Positions 2,313 through 47,052 of a stretch of DNA of 48,126 nt are shown here, one piece after another. Below the pieces are notes generated by a model that was not told the origin of the DNA, made no database searches, and was given only the letters and a program-made list of their open reading frames with translations. Both the position numbers and the translations under genes were made by a program. The DNA is taken from positions 1-48,126 of IMG/VR virus record IMGVR_UViG_3300036829_000162, one strand, 5' to 3'. Source of the DNA: a virus. Positions within the stretch are counted from its first letter, which is position 1, and each line of letters begins with the position of its first letter.

Positions 2313-2749
2313 TGAATTACCCTCCTCACGCGCAGCTCGGCGCGTGAAAAAACGTCATCAAAATGCGCTGGGGGATATGGCAGAATGAAGTAGAGCCGTA
2401 CCTTCCCTGCGCTTTGTCTACAACTTGGCGCTGCGCTGATTCTTGGCGGAAGTAACGCAGCAGTCGAGAACTACAGGGTTCAAAGGGGAGGAGATCTTCC
2501 GCGGCTTCCCCGGTCGGGGACGGCGCTCAAGCGGTACAATCCGATTTTGCCCCGCCCTATTAACTTTCCCTTCCGAGTTTGCAAATTTGAATTGTGGCTC
2601 ACCGGGTTACGGTACCGGTATGAGTTCCATTCCCGGTACGAAAGCCCCGCTTTTGCCCACAGAATAGGCGCTACAGTCGTAGAATCCACGCGCCGCGAGA
2701 GTGACCCAAACACCCCCGCAGCGCTGACCAAACTCAAGGTGTGTTTGAG
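2313..2749. promoter_or_regulatory. divergent intergenic region between early operon and integrase
   Basis: This non-coding stretch must hold the promoters of the leftward early operon and the rightward integrase. It contains a hairpin (2327-2346) in the early leader and a palindromic core CGGTACCG with a nearby repeat of CGGTACG around 2610-2640. Integrase-adjacent regions usually carry attP, but no attachment core can be identified without a host sequence. No convincing sigma-70 hexamer pair was found. An open frame at 2443-2667 has no ribosome site and odd composition and is not called. Confidence 0.45.
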
Positions 2750-3688
2750 ATGGCTGCTGCCGATTCTAACGCCGCATTGCGCTATTTGAGCCTGCTCGAC
2801 GAAGCTTTGCTGGCCAAAAACACCCGGCTGGGGTACCAGGCCGATTGGCGGCACTTCGAGCGCTTCTGCACCGCTCAGGGTTTCCCCTCGCTCCCCGCCT
2901 CGACGGACACCGTTGCTCTCTTCATCGCTACCCGTTTGCAGAGCGGCCGGAAGGTCTCGACCGTCACCCGGAACGTGGCGGCCATCGCCTACCAGCACCG
3001 CGAACGCGGGATGGAAAGCCCCTCGACCGAGCGCATCCGCGAAATCCTCCGGGGCGCCAGGCGTCTGAAGGGAGAGCCGGCGCGCCAGGCGAAGCCGCTC
3101 TCGATCGAACACCTGCGCGAAATGGCGGAGTTCGCCGTACGCGAGGACACGGCCTTCGCCTACCGCAACCGCGCCATCATCGTGGTGGGCTTCGCCTCCG
3201 GCCTGCGGACGGCGAGCCTCGCGCAGCTCCAGCTGGGCGATGTGGAGTTCACTGAGAAGGGCGCCGTCTTGCACGTCCGCCGCTCGAAGGGCGATCAGGA
3301 GGGCCGGGGGCTGCTGATAGGTCTCCCCCCAGGCGAGAAGCCGGCTACCTGCCCGGTAAACGCGCTCAAAGGCTGGATTGAGCGGCGAGGCCGGTTCCCC
3401 GGGCCGCTGTTCATTCGCTTTGACCCGGGCTTCGGGAAAGAGCGCGCGCTTGAGCCCGAGCGCATCGGTCAAATCGTTCAGGAGCTGGCGGTGGCGGTGG
3501 GCTTGCGCAAGACCGAATACTCGGGGCATTCGCTGCGCGCCGGCTTCGTGACGGCGGCCGGCGAGGCGCGGTGTTCTGAACTCGCGATCGCGGCCGTGAC
3601 CGGGCATCGCGATATGGCCACGCTGCGCAAGTACTTCCGGAAGGTCGATCTGTGGCGGGGAAACCCCGCAGGGATGATCGGACTCTGA
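2750..3688 (+). CDS. int: tyrosine recombinase / phage integrase
   Basis: This protein (312 residues) is a tyrosine site-specific recombinase that would integrate and excise the phage genome at att sites. An N-terminal SAM-like core-binding domain spans about residues 8-100. The catalytic domain shows the full set: R153 in GLRTASL, K180 in RRSKGD, H260 and R263 in HSLRAGF, H286 in TGHRDMA, and the nucleophile Y295 in LRKYFRK. I start at the ATG because AAGGTG lies 8 bases before it; an in-frame GTG nine bases upstream is possible. The closest-looking relatives are Xer/phage integrases with GHSLRAGF. It is divergent from the early operon and precedes the regulator, the usual place for an integrase. 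Confidence 0.93.
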   Translation: MAAADSNAALRYLSLLDEALLAKNTRLGYQADWRHFERFCTAQGFPSLPASTDTVALFIATRLQSGRKVSTVTRNVAAIAYQHRERGMESPSTERIREILRGARRLKGEPARQAKPLSIEHLREMAEFAVREDTAFAYRNRAIIVVGFASGLRTASLAQLQLGDVEFTEKGAVLHVRRSKGDQEGRGLLIGLPPGEKPATCPVNALKGWIERRGRFPGPLFIRFDPGFGKERALEPERIGQIVQELAVAVGLRKTEYSGHSLRAGFVTAAGEARCSELAIAAVTGHRDMATLRKYFRKVDLWRGNPAGMIGL

Positions 3689-19398: not shown

Positions 19399-19407
19399 GA
19401 GATGGAC

Positions 19408-19812
19408 ATGTGGAAACGTTCTCAAATGATCGGCGCGCTGCTCTTGGCGATCACCCTATCGGCTGTAGCGCAGACTCCGGCGGCGCCCGTCGGCAGCATT
19501 AACTTTACGCCTCCGGCCCCGGGCAAGCTCACGGTGGCCGCGGGCGTCGAATCCTGCACACTGACCGGCAACTCGATTCCGGCGACCGACATTGCGACGG
19601 ACTGCGTTCTGAACGGAATCGTCATGCCGACGTTCCATGTCCCCGTAGCGGCCCTGGCAGGGCCGAACCCGGGCACGGGCTTGACTCTCGGTTTCAACTT
19701 CGGCGGCGACGCGATCACGATTCAACTCACGATCGCAAACGGCCTCATTACCTACTCAGCGGCGGCTACGCCCTCGGGCGGGCAGACTGCGAGCGGTACC
19801 GGAAGTTTTTAG
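19408..19812 (+). CDS. beta-rich protein with Sec signal peptide
   Basis: This 134-residue protein starts MWKRSQMIGALLLAITL then SAVAQTPAAP: charged start, hydrophobic core and AVA/Q cleavage region of a Sec signal. The mature part is a small beta-sandwich-like sequence (VGSINFTPPAPGKLTVAAGV, LTLGFNFGGDAITIQLTI). GGAG lies 6 bases before this ATG, which argues against the earlier in-frame ATG. An exported protein in the virion gene block is odd. It might bind the outer surface or the envelope. Confidence 0.6.
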   Translation: MWKRSQMIGALLLAITLSAVAQTPAAPVGSINFTPPAPGKLTVAAGVESCTLTGNSIPATDIATDCVLNGIVMPTFHVPVAALAGPNPGTGLTLGFNFGGDAITIQLTIANGLITYSAAATPSGGQTASGTGSF

Positions 19813-20873: not shown

Positions 20874-22304
20874 ATGGCAAAGCTATCCATTCTCGCCGGC
20901 GCGACCTCCCAATCGGTCAATGTCTTCATTCAGAACAGCTCCTCCACCACAGGGGCAGGACTGACCGGGCTGGTATTCAACAGCTCGGGACTGATCGCCT
21001 ACTACACGTTCGCCGGCGCGAACGCGACCGCTGTCTCGATCACGCTCGCCACGCTCGCGACGGTGACGACCGCCTACTCGGCGGGCGGTTTTATCGAGAT
21101 CGATTCCACCCACATGCCGGGAGTTTACCGGCTCGATCTGCCAAGCGGCGTTTTGGCTGCGTCGAAGGGGCGTAGCGTCCTGATCTACTTATCGGGAGCT
21201 ACCAACATGGCGCCCTGCGTCCTCGAGATTGAATTAACGGGCACAGACAACCAGGACGCCGTACACGGCGGAATGAGCGCATTGCCGAATACGGCCTGCA
21301 CCGGCAATGCGAGCCTCATCACCAGCGGCACCGGCACCGACCAGCTCTCGGTGGCAAGCGGCCGTATTGATATCGGCAAGGCCCTCGGTACGGCTGTAAC
21401 GCTGGATGCGAATAACGTGCTCAACGTGAGCACGAAGTATGTCGGGGGAACGCTGCAAACGGCTCGCGATATCGGGGCGAGCGTTCTGCTTTCGGCCGGC
21501 ACCGGCACCGGGCAGCTCGACTTCACCTCGGGCGTCGTCAAGGCCAACCTGGCGCAGATCCTCGGCACGGTCGTATCCACGCCGGCAACGGCCGGCATTC
21601 TCGATTGCAACGTGAAGAACTGGAACAACAACGCGGCCCTATCGGATAGCGGCGGCTTCCCTGAGGTCGATGTCGAACGGTTCAAAGGTACCGCCTCGGC
21701 CGGCACGGCAGGCTACGTCGGCATTGACTGGGGGCAGGTGACGAACAAGACCACCGGCAACGCTCTCACCGGAACCACCATCAGCAGCCTGCAAACCCTG
21801 GCGGCGGTTTCCTCGGTCACTGGCGATGTATCGGGCAAAGTCTTAGGCGGCGGCGCCTCGGCGTTTACCTCGATCGGCGTGCAGGCCGACGTCGAGCAGT
21901 GGAAGGGCTCTGCCGCGCCGGCGAACACCGGCGACGCCTTTGCACGGCTCGGAGCTCCCGCCGGCGCCTCGGTTTCGGCCGACGTGGCAGCGATCAACGC
22001 TAAGACCACCAATCTACCCGGCTCCCCGGCGGCCGTTGGCTCGCAGATGGACCTCGTCAACGCTCCCAACGCTACCGCTCTCAATGCCGCGGCCGACGCA
22101 ACGCTCGATCGCGCGGCAGGCGTCGAAACGGGTTGGACCGTGCGCCAGGCCTTCCGCATCTTCCTGGCAGCGCTCGGCGGGCTCGTTTCGGGCGCCGGCA
22201 CTTCCGCCGTCACCATCACCAACCCGGGCAACACCAAAAACCGGATTGTAGCCACGGTAGACGCCAGCGGCGATCGCTCGGCGATCACCTATGACGTGAC
22301 GTAA
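20874..22304 (+). CDS. large repetitive virion surface / fibre-like protein
   Basis: This 476-residue protein is G/A/T/S-rich and beta-type, starting MAKLSILAGATSQSVNVFIQ, with a long middle of semi-repeated short strands (DIGKALGTAVTLDANNVLNV, ERFKGTASAGTAGYVGIDWG) and a C-terminal domain (GWTVRQAFRIFLAALGGLVS, TITNPGNTKNRIVATVD). This pattern is common in phage and prophage structural blocks; fibre-like assembly is inferred. It overlaps the next gene by one base. Confidence 0.55.
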   Translation: MAKLSILAGATSQSVNVFIQNSSSTTGAGLTGLVFNSSGLIAYYTFAGANATAVSITLATLATVTTAYSAGGFIEIDSTHMPGVYRLDLPSGVLAASKGRSVLIYLSGATNMAPCVLEIELTGTDNQDAVHGGMSALPNTACTGNASLITSGTGTDQLSVASGRIDIGKALGTAVTLDANNVLNVSTKYVGGTLQTARDIGASVLLSAGTGTGQLDFTSGVVKANLAQILGTVVSTPATAGILDCNVKNWNNNAALSDSGGFPEVDVERFKGTASAGTAGYVGIDWGQVTNKTTGNALTGTTISSLQTLAAVSSVTGDVSGKVLGGGASAFTSIGVQADVEQWKGSAAPANTGDAFARLGAPAGASVSADVAAINAKTTNLPGSPAAVGSQMDLVNAPNATALNAAADATLDRAAGVETGWTVRQAFRIFLAALGGLVSGAGTSAVTITNPGNTKNRIVATVDASGDRSAITYDVT

Positions 22305-22672
22305 TGTTCGCGGCCCGCTATTTCGCGCCGCGGTACTTCGCTCCGCGCTATTTCCCGGAGCATGGGGCCAGCGTCAACCTCACGCTGCACCCCGGCGTCG
22401 CAGTGCTCGTCATCACCGGCCAGGCGCCGCTGGTCCTGATTACCGTCCCGAGCGGGAACGGCATTCCGCGCTACTTCACCACTCAGGCGAGTGGTAAGCC
22501 GCGCCTGGTGGCCACCGCCGGCTCGGGCTCGCCCTTACTGTTTGCGCCAGGTGGCAGCGGCACCCCGCGGGTGTTCTCCGGGGCTGCCGGCACTCCCGGC
22601 AATTTCGATGATCACGCCGGCGACTTTGACGATGCGCGCGGCAACTTCGACGAAGCAACGGATCCCTTATGA
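22304..22672 (+). CDS. virion protein with RYFAP repeats
   Basis: This 122-residue protein opens with three RYF(A/P) repeats (ARYFAPRYFAPRYFP), then has a beta domain and closes with repeated F-D-D/E units (NFDDHAGDFDDARGNFDEA). Short RYF repeats at the start are a known feature of small structural proteins in phages. It overlaps both neighbours (TAATG and ATGA). Confidence 0.6.
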   Translation: MFAARYFAPRYFAPRYFPEHGASVNLTLHPGVAVLVITGQAPLVLITVPSGNGIPRYFTTQASGKPRLVATAGSGSPLLFAPGGSGTPRVFSGAAGTPGNFDDHAGDFDDARGNFDEATDPL

Positions 22673-23748
22673 AAAAGCTGTCTGCCTTTTTTCTTCTCTT
22701 CTCGGTTCTGCACGCGCAGAGCGTCGTGAACATTCCCAATACGACGTTTCCGACCGTGCGCACGCTGCTCAATCAGAATTTCAGCGTCCTCAACAGCCGC
22801 ACGACAACCAACGTGCCAGAGGGCACGAACCTCTACTACACCGTCGCTCGCGTGCTCGCGGGGATCGCGGCCAACACGATCGCGCCGCTTAACATCAGTC
22901 TGCCCGCCGGCGGCACGGTGAGCTCTCCCGATCCCTTCTCGGTGACCAAGGCCTATGTGGCGGCTTCCGGAACTGCCCAGGCGCAAGTCGTGACGCTTTC
23001 GAGCTCGATCACGACGACCAATGCCGGCCTCTATTTCTGCTTCCTGCCGGTTGCCGATAACACCGGCGCCGCGCCGGCGATCGCGGTGAACGGCCTAACG
23101 GCTTTGCCTGTCGTGAAACCCGGGGCGACTTCGCTCGTCGCAGTGGTCGCGCATGACCTCAAGAGCGTGGCGCCGGCCTGCGTCGTCTCGGACGGCAGCG
23201 AGTTTATTTTGCAGAACACCGCATCGACCACGGGTGCGAGCTTATCGACTGTGACGACTAGGGATCTCTTTGTGGGTGGCATCGCTTCAGGCGCTTTCGC
23301 TTCCAACTGGAACATTGCGGGGCAGGGCGGGGCAAACACCGGGGCAAACCTGCCCTATATGGCGCTCACCGCAGATGCCTACATCGGGTTCACGTGGCCA
23401 ACCAACTGGGACAATTCGCAGCCGGTCAATATTCTTCTGACCGTGACGGATTACGCAGGGTCGGGCGGCAATTTCAAAATCGACTTCTCCGTCTCCTGCG
23501 TTGCGAATAACACGGCGATGGGGAGCGGCCTGACCTACAACTCCTCCGTCAGCACCAGCTCGCAATCGTTCACAGGGGGCGGCCTGGCCAATAACTCAAA
23601 GAACTACACCATCAGCACCCTGCCCTATGGATCGTGTGCCGACAACGACCTCGCAGTGCTTCTCATGCACCGGGACACAGGTGTGAGCGGCAACAGCGCC
23701 GATGCCATCGGCGTGATGCGAGTGGCGCTGCAGTACTCGATTAAATAG
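22669..23748 (+). CDS. fibre-like protein with signal peptide and EG-NLYYT motif
   Basis: This 359-residue protein begins MKKLSAFFLLFSVLHAQS, a Sec signal, yet soon carries FPTVRTLLNQNFSVLN and NVPEGTNLYYTVARV, the EG-x-NLYYT-x-x-RV motif typical of cytoplasmically assembled phage tail-fibre proteins. The rest is beta-rich. It therefore looks like a tail-fibre-type protein that has acquired an export signal, or a host-like secreted protein that shares that motif. It is coupled by ATGA to the gene before. Confidence 0.6.
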   Translation: MKKLSAFFLLFSVLHAQSVVNIPNTTFPTVRTLLNQNFSVLNSRTTTNVPEGTNLYYTVARVLAGIAANTIAPLNISLPAGGTVSSPDPFSVTKAYVAASGTAQAQVVTLSSSITTTNAGLYFCFLPVADNTGAAPAIAVNGLTALPVVKPGATSLVAVVAHDLKSVAPACVVSDGSEFILQNTASTTGASLSTVTTRDLFVGGIASGAFASNWNIAGQGGANTGANLPYMALTADAYIGFTWPTNWDNSQPVNILLTVTDYAGSGGNFKIDFSVSCVANNTAMGSGLTYNSSVSTSSQSFTGGGLANNSKNYTISTLPYGSCADNDLAVLLMHRDTGVSGNSADAIGVMRVALQYSIK

Positions 23749-23750
23749 CC

Positions 23751-26684
23751 ATGCGAAGACTGCCTTTTCTTTTTGCGCTCATCGCTCAGGCTGTCTGGGC
23801 GGACAGCACCTCTCTGGTGTTGAACTCCGGATCGTTCGCCACCATGACCATTCCCAGCGTGGCGGCATTCTCGGCTGAGGGCAACTACAACATCTCTTTC
23901 CGGATCCACACTATTACGTTTCCCGGCTCGCAAACCAACATCGGCACGATCGGCCGCACGCGCTTTTTTCTGGCGCCGGGAAACCTGCTCATTGGCGTGA
24001 ACGACGGCGACAGCCAAAGCAGTCGCGGCAACTCCGTAACCGTCGACCTGACTTCGCATCCCGACGTGATTGTGCGCGCGCAGCGCTTCGGAACGATCTT
24101 TCCGGTCCAGGACGGCTCGACGGGCTCGCAATGGCTCGAAGTCCAGGACGTGTTCACCGGCGCCATCCTCACCGAGGCCTGCGCGGTGAATATCGCGACC
24201 GCTTGCCCGGTCGATACCGCGGCGAACGCCAATGTCGTCGGCTCGGGCGGCGGCCTGGGCGCCTCGGGCGCCTCCTTCTCACTCGGCTGGCTGAAATGGT
24301 CCACCGTGACGGTGAAGCCGGGCAGCCCGATGCCCGACGAATCGACGCCGGCCGATCTGGGCGACTGGCATTTCAATAACTCACTTACCAATGCCGGCAC
24401 CGCGGGCTATGCGCTCACCCTGACCGAGACCTCCCCGACTTACGGCGCAACGCCGGCACGCAATCCCATCGTGCAGCTGACGCGGCAATATCTGCATGCC
24501 GGCATTCCGCAAGTGTTGACCTCGGCCGCCTCGGCGCTCGATGGCGGGTCGACGCTCGCGTATGCCTGGACGCAGATTTCGGGGCCAACGACCGTCACCT
24601 GGACCGGCGCGGCGACCGCGACGCCGACGGTTTCCAATACCGTCTTCGGCTCCTACACCTTTCAATTGATTTGCACCGATAGCTCCCTCAATCAAACTCA
24701 GCGAGTGATCGAGGACGGTTTCGTCTTCACTGACGCCAACGACGTCGTGATTACGGGCAATGCGCAGGTCGATGCCGTCCTCGGCCCGCAGAAACGATTC
24801 AATAGCGGCCCTTGGGACTGGGGCGACGATCGCCAGGCGGCCGAGTCCGCGCTGCAGATCGCCAACAACACATCGGCGGCATACGGCTACATCGGCGGCG
24901 GCTTTGGCACCTCACCCTGGAACGTCCAGGCGCCCGGCACGATCAGCGTCACCAATCACAGCGCCACGGTGACCGGCGACGCGAGCACGCGCTTTAATAG
25001 CGTCTCGGGCTGCCCGCCCTGGATCGCGATCTGGTATCCGGACTCTAGCCTGCCGGCGGGACACGGCAATCGCATCATGCCGGTCTTGAGCTGTGCGTCG
25101 GATTCCAGCCTCACGCTCGACACCGTGACGGGCAGCAGCAAAGGACCCTGGAACGATCAGGGCTCGCTCAATTCCATCATCGGATCCGGCCCAACCTATT
25201 CCGGCTGGCATTACGCTTTCATCGACTCCACCACGCTCGGAAACCTGATCGCGAACCAGTCGCCCAACGACTTTTACGACAACGTCGTGGCGCTCTATTC
25301 GCTTTACTACCGCTCGGGCATCGTTGAATATCTCTCGGCCGCGCGCAGCGCTGCCGATGGCCACTGGATTTTCGCCCTCGATTCCGGTCGCAATTTCTAC
25401 TTCGGCGAGTCGTTTGGCGGCTTCCCGCGCAATCGCGCCGTTTTGGGCATGTGGATACGCGCCTTGGATGGACGGCCGGATATGTACCCCGGCCTGGAGC
25501 TGATCGCGGCTTACGGCCATGCGGCGCACCAGAGCACCTATCCGTGGACGCTCGACTGGGGCCGGTATGGCGATCAACGCGAAACCTCTTATTCCTTGGG
25601 CGAGCAGACATACTGCGCGCTGCTCGATCCGACGGCGGCCAACGCGGCAACCTGCCGCGGCTATATCTCGGACATGATGACGAACGGGATCACGCCGCAG
25701 GCCTCCAAAAACTTCTACGTCGCCTATTTCGGAAATATGTTCGGCGGCAACTCAGGCACCGCGTACGCGAGCTGGGTTTCAGGCGGCGGCTCGGTCGCGC
25801 TGCAGCATGGATCCTCGACCGTTACCCTCTCCGGAAACGTCTGGAGCTCGGGCATGTTCGTGGTAGCGCTGAACGACGGCAACCCCTATCCAAACGTAAT
25901 GGCTTTCCTGCCGGCGACGTCGACGCCTGCATCGAACGCCGATTTCTTCGCCGGCGCCTATTGCCCGGCGTACGTCGACACTACCCACGTAACGCTCAAG
26001 GACTGCGCCAGCGGCGCTACCGTGCCCTGGCAGGGCAACGACTGCGGCAGCTGTGGATGGGCGCTCGGCCCTCCCGGCTCGCTCGGCCGCCAAGTGGGCT
26101 TTGGCGCGCAACCCTTCATGCTCGGGATGTTCGGCACGGTGATGAACTGGGTGGCTCAGGCCATGGCCTGCACCGCGCCCGGCGTTCCCTCTGGATGCGA
26201 CAACACCGTCGCGGCCAACGCGCGCAAGCATCACGTCCAGGTTGCCAACTGGATGAAAAACACAGCCTACAACGCCTCCTACAAGGCCGTTTGGTATGCC
26301 GCGGGCTTCGTCAACTGTCCAGCGGATACCATCGGGTGCGCGGACGCCAAGACGGCCGCCGAGGCGCGGCTCGACAACGCCGAATCCATGCGCGCGGTGA
26401 TGGTTTCCTACGCCTACAACGGCGACCCGGCGCTGCAGGCCTTCGGCGATATTCTCTTTAACGCCATGTGGGCAAAACCCGGATGGACGGCACCCGTCGG
26501 CTTCACTGGCGACGCGATTTACCTTACCGGATATAACGACGTTTACGGGTTCTTTGTGACGGGCGCGATTCCGCTTCCCAAGTATTTCGGGATCCTGTTT
26601 GGAATCGGAGGAAACGCCAGTTGGCCCGCCATCCGGCTGACAAACCTCGGCCACTCGCGAGTGGGCGCGTTCACCGGCCGCTAG
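23751..26684 (+). CDS. large secreted PKD / (alpha/alpha)-barrel-like putative depolymerase
   Basis: This 977-residue protein has a Sec-like start (MRRLPFLFALIAQAVWA), an N-terminal beta domain, a PKD-like domain around residues 260-330 (YAWTQISGPTTVTW, TYTFQLICTDS-like) and a long helical, W/Y-rich region after residue 350 (DWGDDRQAAESALQIANN, YYRSGIVEYLSAARSAADGH) that reads like an (alpha/alpha) toroid of polysaccharide-active enzymes. Two inserted beta units (near 24937-25155 and 25789-26020) recur in other tail genes. No catalytic residues can be assigned. A polysaccharide depolymerase or adhesin is inferred. Confidence 0.5.
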   Translation: MRRLPFLFALIAQAVWADSTSLVLNSGSFATMTIPSVAAFSAEGNYNISFRIHTITFPGSQTNIGTIGRTRFFLAPGNLLIGVNDGDSQSSRGNSVTVDLTSHPDVIVRAQRFGTIFPVQDGSTGSQWLEVQDVFTGAILTEACAVNIATACPVDTAANANVVGSGGGLGASGASFSLGWLKWSTVTVKPGSPMPDESTPADLGDWHFNNSLTNAGTAGYALTLTETSPTYGATPARNPIVQLTRQYLHAGIPQVLTSAASALDGGSTLAYAWTQISGPTTVTWTGAATATPTVSNTVFGSYTFQLICTDSSLNQTQRVIEDGFVFTDANDVVITGNAQVDAVLGPQKRFNSGPWDWGDDRQAAESALQIANNTSAAYGYIGGGFGTSPWNVQAPGTISVTNHSATVTGDASTRFNSVSGCPPWIAIWYPDSSLPAGHGNRIMPVLSCASDSSLTLDTVTGSSKGPWNDQGSLNSIIGSGPTYSGWHYAFIDSTTLGNLIANQSPNDFYDNVVALYSLYYRSGIVEYLSAARSAADGHWIFALDSGRNFYFGESFGGFPRNRAVLGMWIRALDGRPDMYPGLELIAAYGHAAHQSTYPWTLDWGRYGDQRETSYSLGEQTYCALLDPTAANAATCRGYISDMMTNGITPQASKNFYVAYFGNMFGGNSGTAYASWVSGGGSVALQHGSSTVTLSGNVWSSGMFVVALNDGNPYPNVMAFLPATSTPASNADFFAGAYCPAYVDTTHVTLKDCASGATVPWQGNDCGSCGWALGPPGSLGRQVGFGAQPFMLGMFGTVMNWVAQAMACTAPGVPSGCDNTVAANARKHHVQVANWMKNTAYNASYKAVWYAAGFVNCPADTIGCADAKTAAEARLDNAESMRAVMVSYAYNGDPALQAFGDILFNAMWAKPGWTAPVGFTGDAIYLTGYNDVYGFFVTGAIPLPKYFGILFGIGGNASWPAIRLTNLGHSRVGAFTGR

Positions 26685-28874: not shown

Positions 28875-31403
28875 ATGGCATTCGAACCGAAGGACCTGCA
28901 AATCATTCCGCGAGGCATCAACCTGGTGCCGCCTGGCGACCAGGTCGCCGAAGGCGATTGCCTCGAGCTCACCGGCTGGTGGCCCGGATCACTCGGCCGC
29001 CTCGAGCAGGATCGCGGATGGGTTCTGAAGAACGTCGCCGGCGGCGTGGGATCGAACCTCGACATGCTCTCGGAGTGCCAGGGGCGCGTCTATTACGGCG
29101 GCAACGCGGCCGGCGTCGGCTACCTCTACCAGGTTGGCAGGGATACAGCGGGCGTCTGGCTCGAGAACGATTTCGACGGCTATCCGCTCGGGATGTGCGC
29201 CTACCAGAGCATTCAGTGGATTATGAATCGCGCGCACCAGCGGCGCGACGACGGCACAACCACCACCGACTGGGGAACCGAAGTGCCTGGCGCGATGAGC
29301 GCGGCCTCGGTGGCATCGGGCGGCGGCCTGGCCGATGGCACTCACGATTACTACGTCACGTTCGTCGACATTTACGGCTACGAGGGGAACCCTTCGCCCG
29401 TACTCGAGGTGGTTCTCCCGGCGGGCGCCTTCTCGACCGGCACCGTGGCGGTCGACACCGGATCCGCCACGATCGTGCTCTCTGGCGGGACCTGGACCAG
29501 CGGCATCACCGGCCAGACCTTTCAGGTCGCCGGCGACACCGACACCTACATCCTGACCTACGTCGACGCGACGCACGCCACGCTCAACACGCCCTACACC
29601 GGCGCGAGCAATGGCGCGGCGAGCTTTGCCATTTTCAGCCCCGCGAACGCCGGCACTGCGACGTTGACCAGGCCAACCGCCGCGACCCCTGCCCTTATCG
29701 CCGGCTGGAACGTTTACCGGCAGAGCCCCGGATCCGGATCCATTTACCAGGTCAACACCACGATGATCGCTTACGGCACGTCGACCTATCAGGATTTCGG
29801 CGACGAAGCGCACCAGCAGGACCAGGAGAGCCTGATCGAGGAAGACGTCGTCATGGAGGCCGATCACGACCCGCCGCCGGCCGCTCGCATCTTGGCCGCC
29901 ATCCCGTTCAACGGGCGCATCCTGGCCGCCAACTCGGCACAGTACCCGAACCGCATCTGGTTTACGCGGCCGCTCGAACCCAACTATTTCCCCGGCTCGG
30001 CCGATCCGCAGTCCGGAAACTGGGTCGACGTCGGCAACGATTCGGGCGACCAGATTCTGCACATCTCGGTCAAGGTGGGCTATCTCGTCATTTACCGTCA
30101 GCGCTCGATCTGGCAGCACTCGGGCGACCTGGGCGACCCTTCCGCGGTGCTTTCGCCCCTGATTCCGAACATGGGGATCGTGGGACCCCGCGCGGTGGTC
30201 TCTACTTCGACCGGTGACATTGCGGTCGTAAAGCAGGGCCTGGCCTTCGGCTTGTATCGCGTGACCGACTGGGAGCAGCGCGTGGGTGCCAAGGTCGAAC
30301 CCATCCTAAATGGACTCGGCGCCGAGAATTACTCCGCCATCAATCCCGCGGCGGCCTCCACCTGCGCTTTGGGTTACCAGCTCGGCCGACTCTGGTTCTC
30401 CTACCCGGACGGCAGCAACACCTACCCGAACCGGCTGCTGATTTACGACGTGGAACAGGACACGTTCAGCTATTCGGTCAGCGGCCGCTGGTTCTCGCGC
30501 ATCGGGTCTTTTGGCGCCTTCCTGCACGGCTCTCTGTTCTTCTTGGGAGCGAGCACCGGCAAGGTCTACAGCCTGATCGATGGCGGCAGCGAGGACGGAT
30601 CCGCCACGCCGCTCGCCTACCAGTCGCAATACCTCGACGTCGGCTTTCCGGATCACGAGAAGACCTGGGGCGACCTGGTGCTCTCGCACAACACCCAAGG
30701 GGCGGCCTGGACCGTCTCGATCCGGCTCAACAAAGGCGCCGACATCTTCAACCTGAAGGCCATCAGCTCGTCGTCTCTGACCAGGCAGGAAATTCCGCTG
30801 ATTTACCCGGTGGGCCACGCCAACGCAGGCCAGCCGATTGAGAGTTTCAATCTTTCAATCCGCGTGGCCGGCTCGGGCGCCACCACATTGCCGGGCGGCT
30901 ATATCGACACGCCGATCCTCCTGCACTACTTAGTGAAGCCGCGGCGGGCGACCACCTGGGACTCCGGGCCCACCGACCACGGCATGACCGGCGCCAAAGT
31001 CGTCGACATGGTGGAGATCGATTGCGACGGCGGCCCGCTGCTGCTCTATTACCAGAGCGACATTCCCGGCGGCCAGCTGGTTGAGCGTTCCAGTGGAACG
31101 ACGGGGCCCGGCGGCCAGGGCACCGGCTCAAACGGCCTGGCCATTATCGCCACCACCGGGCGCCAGGTGGTGCGTGTGCCGCTGCCGTCCACCATCACCG
31201 GCCGGCTGCTGCGCTACCAGCTCTATTCGCCTTCGGGCAATTTCCTTCTGTATCGGTTCCGCGTGCGCGCTTTGCCGGTCGGCCAGTTTGTCGACGGCAC
31301 CATGGGCGACACCTGGTACACCGAGCCGATCGCCGCCGGAAGCGCCGGCGTTGCACCAGTCTACGAAGCGGCACGCCGGGAGCGGCTGCCGCAGGAGATC
31401 TAA
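28875..31403 (+). CDS. tail hub / nozzle-type propeller protein
   Basis: This 842-residue protein begins EPKDLQIIPRGINLVPPGDQ, then ECQGRVYYGG- and NGRILAANSAQYPNRIWF-type blade units, the usual signature of the beta-propeller tail tube/nozzle of podoviruses (P22 gp10, T7 gp12 type). A recurring beta insert lies near residues 186-254. The C-terminal ~110 residues (from about 705, with YYQSDIPGGQL and the DGTMGDTWYTEPI end) form a separate domain that is repeated as the next two genes. Its start codon follows the previous stop directly. Confidence 0.65.
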   Translation: MAFEPKDLQIIPRGINLVPPGDQVAEGDCLELTGWWPGSLGRLEQDRGWVLKNVAGGVGSNLDMLSECQGRVYYGGNAAGVGYLYQVGRDTAGVWLENDFDGYPLGMCAYQSIQWIMNRAHQRRDDGTTTTDWGTEVPGAMSAASVASGGGLADGTHDYYVTFVDIYGYEGNPSPVLEVVLPAGAFSTGTVAVDTGSATIVLSGGTWTSGITGQTFQVAGDTDTYILTYVDATHATLNTPYTGASNGAASFAIFSPANAGTATLTRPTAATPALIAGWNVYRQSPGSGSIYQVNTTMIAYGTSTYQDFGDEAHQQDQESLIEEDVVMEADHDPPPAARILAAIPFNGRILAANSAQYPNRIWFTRPLEPNYFPGSADPQSGNWVDVGNDSGDQILHISVKVGYLVIYRQRSIWQHSGDLGDPSAVLSPLIPNMGIVGPRAVVSTSTGDIAVVKQGLAFGLYRVTDWEQRVGAKVEPILNGLGAENYSAINPAAASTCALGYQLGRLWFSYPDGSNTYPNRLLIYDVEQDTFSYSVSGRWFSRIGSFGAFLHGSLFFLGASTGKVYSLIDGGSEDGSATPLAYQSQYLDVGFPDHEKTWGDLVLSHNTQGAAWTVSIRLNKGADIFNLKAISSSSLTRQEIPLIYPVGHANAGQPIESFNLSIRVAGSGATTLPGGYIDTPILLHYLVKPRRATTWDSGPTDHGMTGAKVVDMVEIDCDGGPLLLYYQSDIPGGQLVERSSGTTGPGGQGTGSNGLAIIATTGRQVVRVPLPSTITGRLLRYQLYSPSGNFLLYRFRVRALPVGQFVDGTMGDTWYTEPIAAGSAGVAPVYEAARRERLPQEI

Positions 31404-31766
31404 ATGGCTTTCCAAAAAGTTTTTGACTTCAAAGAAATCACGATCGAGTATGCGTCGAACGGCACCGCGGTTTTTCAGTTCTACAGCGATATGCCCGGCG
31501 GAACGCTCGCGGTCCGGCTGCCGCTCGGCTCGCCCGGCTCCGGAGGCTTCTCTCTCCCGTCGACGGGCGGCATCACGATCCGTAAGACCATCACGATTCC
31601 GCTTGATGGCGTGCAAGGAACGCAGTACTACCCGATCGTGACGCCCGGCAACACGACGCAGATCATCCTGCTGCAGGCCAAAATCTGGCTTCGGCCGATC
31701 GGCGTCTATCTGGATGGCTCCCTCTCGGAAATCTGGCAGACGCAGCCCATCGCAGTGGGGGCGTAA
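31404..31766 (+). CDS. tail protein, stand-alone copy of the hub C-terminal domain
   Basis: This 120-residue protein matches the C-terminal domain of the preceding hub protein in order: FQFYSDMPGGTLAVRLP, a central TITIPLDG-type segment, WLRPIGVYLDG and WQTQPIAVG. It may assemble around the hub. The start follows the previous stop directly. Beta-sandwich architecture is inferred. Confidence 0.6.
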   Translation: MAFQKVFDFKEITIEYASNGTAVFQFYSDMPGGTLAVRLPLGSPGSGGFSLPSTGGITIRKTITIPLDGVQGTQYYPIVTPGNTTQIILLQAKIWLRPIGVYLDGSLSEIWQTQPIAVGA

Positions 31767-32327
31767 GTGGGCTTCCAAAAGGTCAAGCTCTTCAGCAAAA
31801 TCGAAGTGCACGTCGCGGCCAGCGCTCAAGGTACGTTCGCGATTCTGACCGATCTGCCGGGGAACGCCATGGCGCAGCGCACCAGCTTCCCTATCCCGAC
31901 GACCACCAGGCGGCCGGTGATCGCGCGGCTGCCCTTCAACACGCAGGGGCATCTGATCCAGGCGCTCCTGACTCCGAACGCCGCGGGCACCGTGACACTT
32001 TACGGCGCCCGGGTGTGGGCGCGGGAGCTTCCCAATGGCGAATGGGCCTGGTACGACCTGCCGGTGATCGAAACGCCGGCCGAATATGCGTCGGCGCCCT
32101 TGCCGATTCCGTCGACTCCCGAAGAGTGGAGCCCGGCCGAGCTGCCGATTCCGGCCACTCCGGAGGCCTGGAATCCATCGGCGTTACCGATTCCGCCTAC
32201 TCCCGAGGAGTGGTCCGCGGCCGAGCTGCCCATCCCTCCCACGCCCGAGGCCTGGGGAACCGCGGAACTTCCGCTCAAACCCACACCCGTGGTACCCGGC
32301 TGGAGTGACCTCGAGGTCGACAAGTGA
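31767..32327 (+). CDS. tail protein with hub C-terminal domain and proline repeat tail
   Basis: This 186-residue protein has the same ~110-residue domain (FAILTDLPGNAMAQR, VWARELPNGEWAWYDLPV) and then a repeat tract of a 14-residue unit, LPIPxTPEEWxxAE-like, in about four and a half copies, ending in GWSDLEVDK. The repeats would form an extended proline-rich stalk. The start is GTG immediately after the preceding stop. Confidence 0.6.
   Translation: MGFQKVKLFSKIEVHVAASAQGTFAILTDLPGNAMAQRTSFPIPTTTRRPVIARLPFNTQGHLIQALLTPNAAGTVTLYGARVWARELPNGEWAWYDLPVIETPAEYASAPLPIPSTPEEWSPAELPIPATPEAWNPSALPIPPTPEEWSAAELPIPPTPEAWGTAELPLKPTPVVPGWSDLEVDK
32091..32290 (+). repeat. tandem 42-bp-type coding repeat (14 residues)
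   Basis: The 3' half of this gene encodes imperfect 14-residue units with the core LPIP-x-TPE-(E/A)-W. Copies differ in sequence but keep the spacing, giving a 42-bp period. Such proline/tryptophan repeats usually form extended spacers, and copy number may vary between strains. Confidence 0.6.
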
Positions 32328-34897
32328 TCAAAGACATTCCTCCGATTCCCGGAGTCGTGCCTCAGCTCATCACCTCGGTCAACGAACGGCTACGGCAGAT
32401 TCGCCTGCTGACGAGCAGCTCGTCGCCGGCGCCTGGCGGCAGCGGATCGAAGACACCCGTACCCACGGGAACACCGGCGCCCCCGGCCGTGCTGACGATT
32501 ACCTTCTCTCCCTCGAGCGGCCAGTTGGGCGTTCCCTACTCGGGCTCGGTTTCGGCCGCCGGCGGAACGGCGCCTTACACGTACAGCATTACGGTCGGAG
32601 GCCTGCCCTTTGGTTTGACCCTGGACCCGGCCTCTGGCCAGATCTCGGGCACGCCTCTCGAGACCGGGCACTTTGTCTTCACCGCCAACGCCAAGGACGC
32701 CGACGGCAACCAGGTCAACGACAGCTTCACCATCACGATCACGCCGGCCAGTGCGCAGTTGGGCACCATCACCACGGTAACGGCGGCGCTCGCCGGCGGG
32801 GCGCGCTATCTGCTCCCCGATCAGAGCACGCACGATATCATCACGATCACCCCGCATTTTTCGGGCGGCGTGGGCACACAGAACGTAGGGGTTTGGCTGT
32901 TCTTCAGGCGTTCGACGGGCACCGCGGCGGCCTGGTATTTCCAGGGAAACTATCCCTGCCAGATTGGCGGCTCGATCAACCTCGACGAGCTCATCGTCGA
33001 TGGCTCCGCGGTAACGGCGCAGATCGCCGTCCAGGCCGGCGTCTTCCAGGGCGACTCGGTAACGGCGCTCGCGGGCCCGCCGGCGGCCGCGGTGAAATCG
33101 GGCACCTTCACGCTCAAGCTCGATCCCCCGATCGCCGGCGGCGCCACCGCTACCATTACCAACGCGGCCGGTTCGGCTCCCACGCAGGCCAACATCTACA
33201 TGGGGCTGAACTCGCTCGGCAACCCCTATGCCGAAGTGATCATCAGCGTGAACACGCCCGGCGGCATCGATCCGAACTGCTGGTATTACCAGGCCTGGGT
33301 GGAGTGGGTCGATTCGGGCGGCTCTCCCATCAACCCCGGCGGCGTGAACAATACGAGCGGATGGAACCCCGGCGTCCGTTTTGTCAACGACGGAAAGATC
33401 CAGCAATGGACGCTGCTGATCAACTACCCGGCCGCCGGCGTAGACGGATACCTGCGGATTGAATTGTTCGGCTTGAACCGTTCCGCCACGGCTTCGGTTG
33501 CGCCCTACACCGGCGACACCAACGTCACTTTACAGACGGCCTGGACTGGCTCGGCGAATCACTTTGACCTGCATGTGGGCGGAACGCCAGGCAGCGTCAC
33601 CACGAACCCCACCAGCCCCAAGAGCAACATCGGCCTGTCGGTTGCGTTCGATGCTTCGTTCACGTTTTTGAATCAGATCTTCGGCGGGCGCTTCATCCCG
33701 ACGAGTTACGTTTCGCCGGCGCCGGCTCTCGCCTGGGGCTTTGCCGGAAATACGGGCGCCAACATCTTCGCGCAAAACGCCGATGGACCCTCAACGACCA
33801 ACTCGCTAAAACTCATCAGCGACCACTCGTCGGTGCCGACGGTGTTTCAGCGCATTCCGGTCACGCCCAACACGCCCTTTAATGTCTCGAACTCGATCAA
33901 ATCGAGCGCCGGCGCAACTACGTTTGTGTGCAGCTTTCAGTGGCAGGATTCGAGCTTTGCGAACATCGGCTCGGCCACTTCGATTACGCTCACCGGACCT
34001 TTTGCCTCCTGGGGCAACGCCTACCTGGGAACCTGGCCTTCTCCCTCGAACGCCGCTTATATGTCGGTGCAGTTCGCGCTGCCGGCATCGAATCCGAACG
34101 CGGAATGGTGGGAAGTGGGCGACGTGCTGGTGCAGGCCGTCGTCGCGCAGCAAAGCAACTCCCAGCTCACGACCACGGCTCCGGAGATCGTCAACGGCGG
34201 CGGCATCCCCTCGGGCTATTCGGCGGCAGTCGCCGAATCGACGACGACCACCGCGCAATCGGCGGCCGGCCTGAACTCGTATCACATCGACGCGGCCGAC
34301 GGCTCCTACGCCGAGATGTTCAGCAGCGCGTCGTCGAACACCGGTTACGGCTGTAAGCGCACCGATAGCGGCGATGAGACCTTCGTTGCACCGGGACTTA
34401 TCCAGATTGTCGACGGCACATTCGGAAACATCGCCGATCTGACCGCCAACGGCTTTTCGTCCATGTCGACGGGAACGCCCTACAGCGGCTCTCTCGCGCC
34501 ATCGAGCTACCAGGGCGGCGTGGCGATCGGGCCCGGCATCACGCCCGGCGGAGGAGGCGGCCCGGCTTTAACCGTGCAGACCCTGGCCAATCCGTGGCTG
34601 GGCACGCCGACCTCGTCGAGAGCGCTCTCCACCGTCTATCGAAACACGACCGGCAAGACCGTGATCGTGTGTGTCACGGTGCAGTGGGGTGGCACGGCGG
34701 CGATGACCATGCGGGTGAAGGTGGACTCCGTGTCTACCCCGACCACGATCGTGCTCGAAGCCATCAACCCGAGCACGACTCTGGCAATGACCATCCCGGT
34801 GCTGTTTCCGGTGTTGCCGAACTATTACTACGAGATCGACTTTACGGGCGGCGGCTTGAGCTCGTCGTCTTTTCTGATCTGGACGGAGTGGAATTAG
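32324..34897 (+). CDS. tail fibre with He-PIG Ig-like domain and conserved tip domain
   Basis: This 857-residue protein begins with a short N-terminal anchor (VPQLITSVNERLRQIRLLT) and a low-complexity linker. A putative Ig-like He-PIG domain follows (about 60-145: LGVPYSGSVSAAGGTAPYTY, GLPFGLTLDPASGQISGTP). A long beta-rich shaft leads to a C-terminal tip domain (about 750-857) with WLGTPT, NTTGKTVIVCVTVQW, LFPVLPNYYYEID and SSFLIWTEW. This tip resembles the secreted protein two genes downstream. The start is GTG overlapping the previous stop. A host-recognition role is likely. Confidence 0.65.
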   Translation: MIKDIPPIPGVVPQLITSVNERLRQIRLLTSSSSPAPGGSGSKTPVPTGTPAPPAVLTITFSPSSGQLGVPYSGSVSAAGGTAPYTYSITVGGLPFGLTLDPASGQISGTPLETGHFVFTANAKDADGNQVNDSFTITITPASAQLGTITTVTAALAGGARYLLPDQSTHDIITITPHFSGGVGTQNVGVWLFFRRSTGTAAAWYFQGNYPCQIGGSINLDELIVDGSAVTAQIAVQAGVFQGDSVTALAGPPAAAVKSGTFTLKLDPPIAGGATATITNAAGSAPTQANIYMGLNSLGNPYAEVIISVNTPGGIDPNCWYYQAWVEWVDSGGSPINPGGVNNTSGWNPGVRFVNDGKIQQWTLLINYPAAGVDGYLRIELFGLNRSATASVAPYTGDTNVTLQTAWTGSANHFDLHVGGTPGSVTTNPTSPKSNIGLSVAFDASFTFLNQIFGGRFIPTSYVSPAPALAWGFAGNTGANIFAQNADGPSTTNSLKLISDHSSVPTVFQRIPVTPNTPFNVSNSIKSSAGATTFVCSFQWQDSSFANIGSATSITLTGPFASWGNAYLGTWPSPSNAAYMSVQFALPASNPNAEWWEVGDVLVQAVVAQQSNSQLTTTAPEIVNGGGIPSGYSAAVAESTTTTAQSAAGLNSYHIDAADGSYAEMFSSASSNTGYGCKRTDSGDETFVAPGLIQIVDGTFGNIADLTANGFSSMSTGTPYSGSLAPSSYQGGVAIGPGITPGGGGGPALTVQTLANPWLGTPTSSRALSTVYRNTTGKTVIVCVTVQWGGTAAMTMRVKVDSVSTPTTIVLEAINPSTTLAMTIPVLFPVLPNYYYEIDFTGGGLSSSSFLIWTEWN

Positions 34898-34902
34898 GGA
34901 TT

Positions 34903-35349
34903 ATGGAACAAGCCCATTTGGACCTGGCGCTGGAGTTTTTTCAGAAGATGAAGGGTCTCGCGCCCCATGAGCAGAAGGCGCTGCAGAACCGCGCGCAGAA
35001 CGTCCTGCTGTTCAACGAAGAACACTGCAAGGCTCACCCGATGGAGACGGTGAATCTCGCCCCAGAGCAGATCGAAGCCTATTGCGCCCACATGCTCGAC
35101 GGCGGCGGCGTGACCGATTCGAATACGGCAATCAACGACGGGCGATCTCTGTTTCTGCTCTACATGCAAGCGCTGCACGATCGCGACTGGTGCGCCATTC
35201 GTCACCTGGAGCGTCACATCGTGAAAGCGTATTTGAAGTCGAACGGACACGTCATCGTCGGCGCCGACGGCCGCGTGAAGCAGATGTCCGGCGCCAAAAG
35301 CGGGACGGCCCCCCCCATCCCTCCACCCGTAAAACAGGAGCAATCATGA
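34903..35349 (+). CDS. hypothetical helical protein
   Basis: This 148-residue protein begins MEQAHLDLALEFFQKMKGLA and is mainly helical, ending in a P-rich tail (TAPPIPPPVKQEQS). AGGGA lies shortly before the ATG. It lies between the tail fibre and the secreted tip-like protein. Function unknown; a fibre chaperone is possible but not shown. Confidence 0.5.
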   Translation: MEQAHLDLALEFFQKMKGLAPHEQKALQNRAQNVLLFNEEHCKAHPMETVNLAPEQIEAYCAHMLDGGGVTDSNTAINDGRSLFLLYMQALHDRDWCAIRHLERHIVKAYLKSNGHVIVGADGRVKQMSGAKSGTAPPIPPPVKQEQS

Positions 35350-35729
35350 AAAAGCTGATCTGTGTTTTGCTGTTGATCGTTTCGGCTGCCCTCGCGCAGA
35401 TACAAACCGCCGGCCCGACGTGGCTCGGAACCCCCACCGCTGGCCGAACGGTGCTGACGCGCTACCAGAACAACACCGGCAAGACGATTCTCGTGAGCGC
35501 GACGTTGCAGTTTGCGGGCACCGCGCCGCCGATGTACCTCGATGCCATGGTGGACCTCGGGCCGTTTCCTGTTACTCGGGTCGCGCGGGCACAAAACAAC
35601 ACCCAAACCGGGATTACCGTTTCGCTGTTCTTTCCCGTGCTGCCGGGCTATTACTATTCTGTCGTACCTTTGGGCGGCGGCTTCAGCTCGGTCGCGGTTA
35701 CGAACTGGGTGGAATGGATGCTTCCTTAA
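35346..35729 (+). CDS. exported copy of the tail-fibre tip domain
   Basis: This 127-residue protein starts MKKLICVLLLIVSAALAQ, a Sec signal, followed by a domain that lines up with the tip of the fibre encoded just upstream: both have WLGTPT, a conserved R, Y-x-N-x-TGKT, GTA, a PVLP-x-YYY motif and GGG-x-SS followed by W-x-EW. The start overlaps the preceding stop and AGGAG lies 6 bases upstream. A secreted fibre tip could occupy the receptor from inside the periplasm and limit superinfection. This function is inference; only the signal and the similarity are seen. Confidence 0.65.
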   Translation: MKKLICVLLLIVSAALAQIQTAGPTWLGTPTAGRTVLTRYQNNTGKTILVSATLQFAGTAPPMYLDAMVDLGPFPVTRVARAQNNTQTGITVSLFFPVLPGYYYSVVPLGGGFSSVAVTNWVEWMLP

Positions 35730-35777: not shown

Positions 35778-36410
35778 ATGGATATTGCCGTCACATCCCC
35801 GTTTCCGTTCGCCGCACTCCCGCGGGTGTGGCGGTGGATCGAGGGCTTTCGCCACAAAGTAGCGGACGATTTTTCCCCCACCACTCTTCCTGAATTTCTC
35901 ACCGCCATGGCGGCGAAGTGGGAACTGCAGCACACCTGGGCAATCCTTGCCGACGGCGAGCTGGGCGGCCTGGTCACGTTTGAGCAGTTCAATGCCTGGC
36001 GTGGCACGGCGCACGTTTTGCTCAAGCCGGAATTTCAAGGCAAAGGTGTCGCCATGAGAGCGTGCCGGCAGGCCGTCGGCGAGATGTTCGCGCGGTTCCT
36101 GATCGGCAAGCTCGAATTCAGCGTGATCGCCAAGAATCTGGCGATCGGCTCGCTGCTGACCAATCTGGGAGCAACCCGCGAAGGAACGCTCAAGGCGCAA
36201 ACGCTGGTAAAGGGAGAGCCCACGGATGTTTGGGTGTACGGCCTGACGAAGAAAGTATTCGAGGAGAAACATGTCGTTCCTATTCGGGTCGAGCTCAGAG
36301 ACCAAAACCACGCCGACGCTGACGGCACAGGGGCAGGGGCTGTTCGACCAGCTCCACTCATTCGGGACCAGCCTGCTGACCGATCCCTCGTCGGGGCTGC
36401 AGCCGATTAA
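35778..36410 (+). CDS. GNAT-family acetyltransferase-like protein
   Basis: This 210-residue protein has a GNAT core: beta strand TWAILADGELGGLVTF, strand TAHVLLKPEF, the acetyl-CoA loop QGKGVA (87-92), helix RACRQAV, then EFSVIAKNLAIGSLLTNLG and DVWVYGLTKKV. GNAT-like proteins occur in podovirus virion blocks, where T7 gp13 has been compared to this fold, so a virion-associated role is possible besides an enzyme. The last ~45 residues are arginine/alanine/aspartate-rich and are read in another frame through the next gene, an overlap of 140 bases. Confidence 0.7.
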   Translation: MDIAVTSPFPFAALPRVWRWIEGFRHKVADDFSPTTLPEFLTAMAAKWELQHTWAILADGELGGLVTFEQFNAWRGTAHVLLKPEFQGKGVAMRACRQAVGEMFARFLIGKLEFSVIAKNLAIGSLLTNLGATREGTLKAQTLVKGEPTDVWVYGLTKKVFEEKHVVPIRVELRDQNHADADGTGAGAVRPAPLIRDQPADRSLVGAAAD

Positions 36411-46250: not shown

Positions 46251-46308
46251 CTGACGGTTACTGATCGTGACACTGGCCGGTGGCGATGTAAGGGGCGAGG
46301 AACTAAAA

Positions 46309-47052
46309 ATGAGAAATCGCAGCAAAGCCCCGGAGGTCTGCCGCGCCGTCGGCTACGTGCGCGTCAGCAAAGCGCTGGCCAGCGGGAAGCAGGAAATGTC
46401 ACCCGCGGCACAGGAAGAAAAGATCCGCGCTCTCGCCCTCTTGCAGAATGTCGAGCTGACGGAAGTGTACGCCGATCGCGAAACCGCCAAGCAAGGCTCG
46501 GTGCGGAAGCGCCAGGGGCTAATGGACGTGCTCGCATTGGCCAAGAAAGGCCAGGTCAACCGCATCATCATCGCCAAGCTCGACCGCCTGACCCGTTCGG
46601 TGATGGATCTGGGGGAGATTCTTACGATTCTCGACAAGGCCGGCGTCTCGCTGGCTTCCGCGACGGAAACCTGGATGGATACAGGCTCGGCGGCCGGCAG
46701 GATGATCTTGAACATCATCACCTCAGTGGCTCAATGGGAAAGAGAAGCGATCGGGGAGCGCACGCGTGCCGTGCTGCAGTTCAAACGCGAGCATCGCCAG
46801 GTCTACAACCACATCGCCTATGGCTTTCGCGCCGTGGGAGTCGCAAGACAGGGCAGGAAGGCCGCGGGGCAGCGCCTGGAGCCCGTTCCTGAAGAGCAGG
46901 CCGTGATTAAGCGGATGCTGGCACTGCGCAAGAAAGGCGCGACCCTGCGCGCGATCGCTGACGAGCTGAACGCCAAGAAAGTGCCGACGAAGATCAAAGG
47001 CGGAAAGTGGCATGCGTCGAGCGTGGCGAACGCCCTCCGGTTATCTACATAA
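46309..47052 (+). CDS. serine recombinase (resolvase/invertase family)
   Basis: This 247-residue protein has the resolvase catalytic domain: YVRVS with the nucleophile S20 and R18, then a KLDRLTRSV motif (K90-R96), and QWEREAIGERTRA. A C-terminal part (GATLRAIADELNAKKVPT) is a helix-turn-helix-like DNA-binding segment. These enzymes invert or resolve DNA, or integrate in larger forms. GAGG lies ahead of the chosen ATG. Together with the tyrosine integrase, the phage has two recombinase chemistries. Its target site is unknown; the inverted repeat at 46217 is a candidate. Confidence 0.85.
   Translation: MRNRSKAPEVCRAVGYVRVSKALASGKQEMSPAAQEEKIRALALLQNVELTEVYADRETAKQGSVRKRQGLMDVLALAKKGQVNRIIIAKLDRLTRSVMDLGEILTILDKAGVSLASATETWMDTGSAAGRMILNIITSVAQWEREAIGERTRAVLQFKREHRQVYNHIAYGFRAVGVARQGRKAAGQRLEPVPEEQAVIKRMLALRKKGATLRAIADELNAKKVPTKIKGGKWHASSVANALRLST

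Follow-up and report, generated by a model that had tools for sequence, protein, structure and literature searches.

Why would a phage place the tip of its own tail fibre behind a signal for export, when tail fibres are assumed to remain in the cytoplasm until lysis? The question is raised by a small gene, P0001, in a soil phage contig of 48,126 nucleotides (IMG/VR record IMGVR_UViG_3300036829_000162; this whole stretch is called the window below). An earlier note, made from the letters of the DNA, had proposed that its product is an exported copy of the fibre tip that masks the receptor or excludes later phages. The following features make up the locus.

32324..34897, + strand: tail fibre without a signal, 857 aa, with an Ig-like (He_PIG) domain at residues 60-140; homologue of the fibre of the related record G004
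34571..34894, + strand: tip domain of that fibre, sister of P0001 (by homology and tree)
34903..35349, + strand: 148-aa gene between the fibre and P0001, with no assigned function; ATGA combines its stop with the P0001 start (ORF list)
35336..35340, + strand: ribosome-binding site AGGAG of P0001 (sequence)
35346..35729, + strand: P0001, signal-bearing tip protein, 127 aa (ORF, translation, homology)
35346..35396, + strand: Sec signal peptide of P0001, 17 residues, expected cut between A-L-A and Q, without a lipobox (sequence, signal rule)
35397..35726, + strand: mature C1q/TNF-like head domain of P0001, 110 residues (predicted fold)

The gene and its signal are established by computation. The reading frame and translation matched the protein first described, and the signal, MKKLICVLLLIVSAALA with Q after the cut, is of textbook form, with a net charge of +2, a hydrophobic core and a score of 7.09 in our rule-based scoring. 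A spurious start is ruled out by the AGGAG at 35336-35340 and the ATGA overlap with the upstream stop, and GC content by codon position (0.56/0.49/0.75) is high at the third position, like that of the neighbouring genes. The only cysteine of P0001 is residue 6, within the signal, and the sequence around the cut lacks a lipobox with its cysteine. P0001 consists of signal and head only, with neither shaft nor anchor. A chance hydrophobic N-terminus is unlikely, since the rule flagged none of the presumed cytoplasmic proteins among 109 controls (37 from E. coli, 32 from P22 and 40 from lambda). It flagged 12 in all (6/37, 2/32 and 4/40, respectively), namely all five that we take to be exported (SurA, LptD, ThiB, Lom and Bor) and seven that are presumably inner-membrane proteins, so that by itself the rule cannot separate a cleaved signal from an anchor. 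No fibre or spike among the 109 controls was flagged.

The relationship to the fibre is equally clear. P0001 is 45% identical to the last 107 residues of the fibre encoded upstream (E 7.2e-24 in a search of the window's own record, 1.6e-20 with blastp), the alignment runs from end to end, and the shared motifs come in the order that the earlier note had listed. That search of the record returned P0001 itself and 34571-34894, and the mature protein (35397-35726) spans the whole tip domain, exactly one copy of it. In a 51-row tree of the tip domain, P0001 and the window's fibre tip are sisters (support 96/87), with branch lengths of 1.78 and 0.36, so that P0001 is most simply a duplicate of the phage's own tip, although the tree has few columns and its bootstrap is unsettled. 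Signal labels change three times on this tree, against 5.8 in shuffles; with so few columns and so unsettled a bootstrap, the number of independent signal gains is unsure.

What P0001 has kept of the tip bears on what it might do. It retains 20 of the 26 family-consensus residues and only 7 of the 40 that are specific to the tip; the WLGTP and GGG inserts, specific to the pair, are kept, and 8 of 12 sparse columns are identical. Tip-specific loops were not selectively retained (loops 1/12, strands 6/28, Fisher p 0.65). With 7 of 40 tip-specific residues left, P0001 may bind a different ligand by now, or it may be a copy in decay. The idea that P0001 masks the same receptor that the fibre would bind is weakened to that extent, although the two inserts are retained. 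P0001 might also be a functionless by-product, a tip fragment that recombination of mobile fibre modules left behind a signal and that is now decaying; the long branch, the loss of most tip-specific residues and the absence of P0001 from relatives (see below) would fit. We consider this quite improbable, because the frame is open, the ribosome site good, the start coupled and the signal of perfect form, because the fold core and the inserts are kept, and because signals persist across several divergent protein families.

The predicted fold agrees with a fibre head. AlphaFold, given 51 sequences, models P0001 (pLDDT 86.1, pTM 0.79) as a C1q/TNF-like jelly-roll, a fold that many trimeric fibre heads share. 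Among such heads (BclA, the C1q family and the BC2L-C lectin; Z 7.5-8.4), BclA matches the model with Z 8.4 and rmsd 2.9 over 97 aligned residues and C1QL2 with Z 8.2, but identity is about 6-12%, and a Z of about 8 perhaps reflects a mere common arrangement. In BFVD the model has 26 matches at E<=1e-3, the top one annotated 'Tail fiber protein' (E 2.9e-8). Foldseek returned no solved structure at E 1e-3 or better; the tip of the Bdellovibrio fibre Bd2133 is among the fold matches at E 0.017.

P0001 matched no family in Pfam (E<=1) or PHROGs (E<=0.1), and neither did the fibre tip domain. Searched alone, P0001 gave 26 pattern matches in viral contigs, none of them confirmed, and no relative among 50,697 phage records. 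A profile of P0001 with the tip reached 21 loci in viral contigs and one of the tip with its kin 50; in bacterial and archaeal genomes, of which few bacterial ones were reached, 2 of 34 candidates for the tip profile were confirmed. With an iterated profile, the domain was recognised in 47 distinct ORFs across 75 loci plus the window; it usually forms the C-terminus of a fibre-like protein and is sometimes present in two or three copies per protein. The tip domain is a common terminus of phage fibres; the fibre at 32324-34897 carries it at the end of a shaft, and P0001 does not. Tandem tips in two or three copies occur at L014 9606-10526 and similar loci, one of them as a separate 307-aa protein.

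Is P0001, then, a lone oddity? That view is ruled out by six tip-bearing ORFs with a signal, P0001 and those at loci L006 (1825 aa), L022 (251), L050 (363), L059 (800) and L066 (833), and by many other signalled proteins; recurrence in several phages is established. P0001 aside, a signal is found on 5 of 40 tip-bearing proteins with their own 5' end, as against 9 of 289 other ORFs of at least 150 aa at the same loci; some of these nine belong to the same signalled set, and the count leaves aside loci L025-L027 and the 4 of 44 proteins that lack their own 5' end. Besides the window, L022 alone has a plain tip as well as a signalled one, and there the two are not sisters. At L053 6287-8704, a signalled fibre-like protein of 806 aa lies right behind a plain tip-bearing fibre. 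Soil phages both related and unrelated to the window have Sec signals on spikes, on enzyme-like proteins and on whole fibres, the longest of 1825 residues. The proposal of an exported copy of the phage's own tip therefore holds in so far as a Sec-signalled tip copy does lie in the structural operon, but 'copy of a tip' is too narrow, and with whole signalled fibres and spikes in other phages, it may be misleading to look for a function that only a lone tip could have.

The window itself has further members of this set, within a P22-like tail module of two adaptor-like genes, a gp10-like gene, the fibre, an acetyltransferase-like gene and large cysteine-free genes, which we take to encode ejection proteins.

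19402..19812, + strand: 136-aa signal-bearing protein in the structural block
22669..23748, + strand: 359-aa signal-bearing fibre-like protein (VPEGTNLYYT), sharing its N-terminus with a 707-aa signal-bearing protein of the related record G074
23751..26684, + strand: 977-aa signal-bearing protein with a PKD domain, 15 Cys and a putative enzyme-like body
28875..31403, + strand: P22 gp10-like tail protein, marker of the tail module
35778..36410, + strand: acetyltransferase-like gene adjoining P0001, with related genes in some relatives

The two small genes at 31404-32327 (120 and 186 aa) are similar to one another and to a portion of the gp10-like protein; they are apparently duplicates, which relatives have kept.

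We compared 37 related records, 36 of them viral contigs found through the window's capsid protein (31-81% identity) and one through the capsid of the cultured phage Tunturi_2 (74%). The tip domain occurs in 2 of the 37, the 148-aa gene in one, and a counterpart of P0001 in none. Signalled proteins of at least 250 aa are nevertheless encoded on the capsid strand in 8 of the 13 long related records, each covered in full (G047, G048, G057, G061, G064, G066, G071 and G074; the gene is identical in G057 and G061), whereas G007, G068 and G076 have no signalled proteins and G073 and G082 only ORFs of up to 223 aa. In podovirus contigs most signalled genes occupy the interval from the capsid gene to the adaptor or gp10 genes. 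Several families have kept the signal while the body diverged, and a LamG-like signalled family is common to podovirus G074 and siphovirus G038 (32% over 276 residues), which together point to a mobile pool of signalled fibre-like genes; P0001 is one local product of that pool. Around its endolysin, G038, the record of locus L059, has a row of signalled proteins of 174, 800, 435, 257 and 227 aa (L059 625-9090).

In G004, a relative of the window and the record of locus L006, the arrangement is reversed: its plain fibre of 1014 aa is homologous to that of the window (50% identity over 174 residues) and lacks the tip domain, which sits instead on the signalled 1825-aa protein. Six of its 18 tabulated proteins are signalled. 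One of 237 aa (L078 10002-10712) has an Ig-like domain that shares 41% identity with its counterpart in the fibre of this phage; the stretch that follows might, as a guess from a single-sequence fold of pLDDT 35, be an outer-membrane barrel.

The signalled set also occurs in Tunturi_1 and Tunturi_2, both of them phages cultured on Acidobacteriota. In Tunturi_2, whose host is Tunturiibacter psychrotolerans X5P2, signals are found on gp12, gp13, gp14, gp16 and gp17, of which gp13 is annotated as tail fiber, gp14 as pectin lyase ('tail spike' in Tunturi_1) and gp17 as virion structural. For records 1 to 4 our tables extend over the first 50 kb, and for record 5 over 30 kb; they omit some small CDS and misread one endolysin row clipped by the stretch edge. 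In them the rule flags 5 of 26 CDS in Tunturi_1, 6 of 27 in Tunturi_2 (one a 44-aa membrane peptide), 1 of 43 in Tunturi_3 (not a fibre), 1 of 38 in Tunturi_4 and 1 of 16 in Tunturi_5 (an annotated lipoprotein). Host habit as the cause of signalled fibres is rejected in part, because Tunturi_3 was isolated on the same strain as Tunturi_2 and yet has plain fibres. The signalled genes number five each at L089 9802-22744 (Tunturi_2) and L091 10371-23028 (Tunturi_1), and four large signalled proteins of Tunturi_2 carry 10 to 34 Cys.

Cysteine content sets the signal-bearing proteins apart. They contain 2.7 to 4.7 times as much cysteine as plain structural proteins of the same phages (window 1.21 v 0.43%, Tunturi_2 2.07 v 0.44%, G004 1.47 v 0.54%; pooled, one-sided Mann-Whitney p 1.1e-5, n 16 and 45), and the inclusion of ORF 20874-22301, which a lax cut (3.45) places among the signal-bearing proteins and which probably has no signal, biases against this result. 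Such richness is as expected of proteins that fold outside the cytoplasm and are truly exported. The mature part of P0001 has no cysteine, and the argument therefore has no direct bearing on it.

Signalled fibre-like proteins, P0001 included, might be virion parts that are exported by Sec, form their disulfides in the periplasm and are fitted during or after lysis. Their genes lie within the structural block, where annotations in Tunturi_1 and Tunturi_2 include tail fibre and tail spike; the tip changes place between plain and signalled proteins, as G004 shows; leaving aside its gp10-like protein, Tunturi_2 lacks a large plain fibre; and among the structural genes compared between Tunturi_1 and Tunturi_2, signalled gp17 differs most (L091 19474-23028 and L089 18902-22744; 85% identity, against 96-100% for the other 17 compared). 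We nevertheless regard this as unlikely, given that the signalled proteins have no N-terminal anchor domain in common, that P0001 has neither shaft nor anchor, and that G007, a related record, lacks a signalled set and bears its tip on a plain fibre. We know of no tailed phage that fits Sec-exported parts to its virions. Nor does the main text of the Tunturi paper, by word search, speak of virion proteomics ('mass spectrometry' and 'signal peptide' each occur 0 times). A broader version is a long shot: that this phage group, cultured Acidobacteriota phages included, might make its receptor-binding apparatus partly inside and partly outside the inner membrane, with Sec-signalled fibres, spikes and tips maturing through periplasmic disulfides and joining virions at lysis, accompanied by soluble lone tips like P0001.

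Somewhat more probable than virion parts, and still on the unlikely side, is that the set serves lysogenic conversion or public goods, as exported adhesins and glycan-active enzymes that aid the host cell or the lysate in a soil biofilm, in the manner of lambda lom and bor. The window encodes a tyrosine integrase and a serine recombinase, lambda lom is located between J and the side tail fibre, and the signal-bearing repertoire varies between phages; in Tunturi_2, gp14 shows a similarity to pectate lyases that falls below the cut-off (PF12708, E 2e-5) and gp17 has chitobiase C-terminal domains. Yet the genes sit in the structural block with no visibly separate moron, and no enzyme family was found, beyond PKD, for the 977-aa protein of the window or the 806-aa protein of G004. 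The two site-specific recombinases, at 2741-3688 and 46267-47052, are different ones in a single phage.

Our leading reading of P0001, held tentatively and at somewhat less than even chances, is masking or exclusion at the surface of the infected cell. We infer its course, including export in the cell, timing, trimer, ligand and effect on adsorption, as follows. The head of the phage's own fibre tip would have been duplicated, and the copy would have gained, or been fused to, a Sec signal. Produced from the structural operon, P0001 would be exported by the host Sec pathway, lose its signal and fold into a small, probably trimeric head that binds carbohydrate or receptor in the periplasm or beyond. 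There it would be one member of the signalled set of fibre-, spike- and enzyme-like proteins of this phage and its kin, which may act on the envelope of the infected cell, where they would bind the surface glycans or receptors that virions use, or trim them. Late superinfection would be reduced, and fewer progeny would be wasted by adsorbing to the dying cell and debris. By analogy, the place of P0001 near the fibre gene resembles that of llp beside pb5 in T5. Against masking or exclusion, P0001 is not conserved in the two collections and the 37 related records searched, it lacks both a lipobox and a known outer-membrane route, and whole exported fibres (1825 aa at L006, 800 at L059) would be an odd means of receptor masking.

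If true, this would be a novel means of shielding the infected cell, in which a phage exports a duplicate of its own tip, and the signalled fibre-like set may alter how the surface of that cell meets other phages. Fibre- and spike-like proteins of cultured phages that bear Sec signals either are misannotated and no part of the virion, or belong to a virion completed outside the cytoplasm; either outcome alters how host range is read from such genomes, and in Tunturi_1 and Tunturi_2 the question is directly testable.

Several known systems are comparable. Lambda Lom and Bor are, like P0001, exported phage proteins, and lom lies among tail-fibre genes, but Lom is an outer-membrane barrel and Bor a lipoprotein, without known homology to fibres. 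Closer in layout are Llp of T5 and Cor of T1-like phages, which are likewise small, carry an export signal and are encoded near the receptor-binding gene. According to excerpts of the T5 paper, Llp is encoded beside the receptor-binding gene and blocks further infection from the periplasmic side, and other coliphages probably share this layout; in the window, one 148-aa gene intervenes between P0001 and the fibre, the putative receptor binder. Llp and Cor are superinfection-exclusion lipoproteins, whereas P0001 lacks a lipobox, and those excerpts do not describe Llp as a copy of the receptor-binding protein, whereas P0001 is a paralogue of the fibre tip. In bacteria, MAT proteins of Bdellovibrio are phage-fibre-like, have a signal peptide and exchangeable tips and are found on the cell surface (excerpts of PMC10769870); they are long fibres in which a conserved domain of ~130 residues and a trimeric shaft follow the signal, whereas P0001 is a lone phage-encoded tip whose signal runs straight into the head. 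WceF of Pantoea is exported and has a phage tailspike fold (excerpts of PMC7949094), and differs from P0001 in being a bacterial biofilm glycan hydrolase with a Tat signal. MAT and WceF indicate that fibre-like folds can be exported. Text searches of open-licence papers, preprints aside, turned up no tailed phage described as having Sec signals on its tail fibres. Exported phage proteins that act at the envelope are a known kind, of which P0001 would be a variant, and the signalled set to which it belongs is the larger finding.
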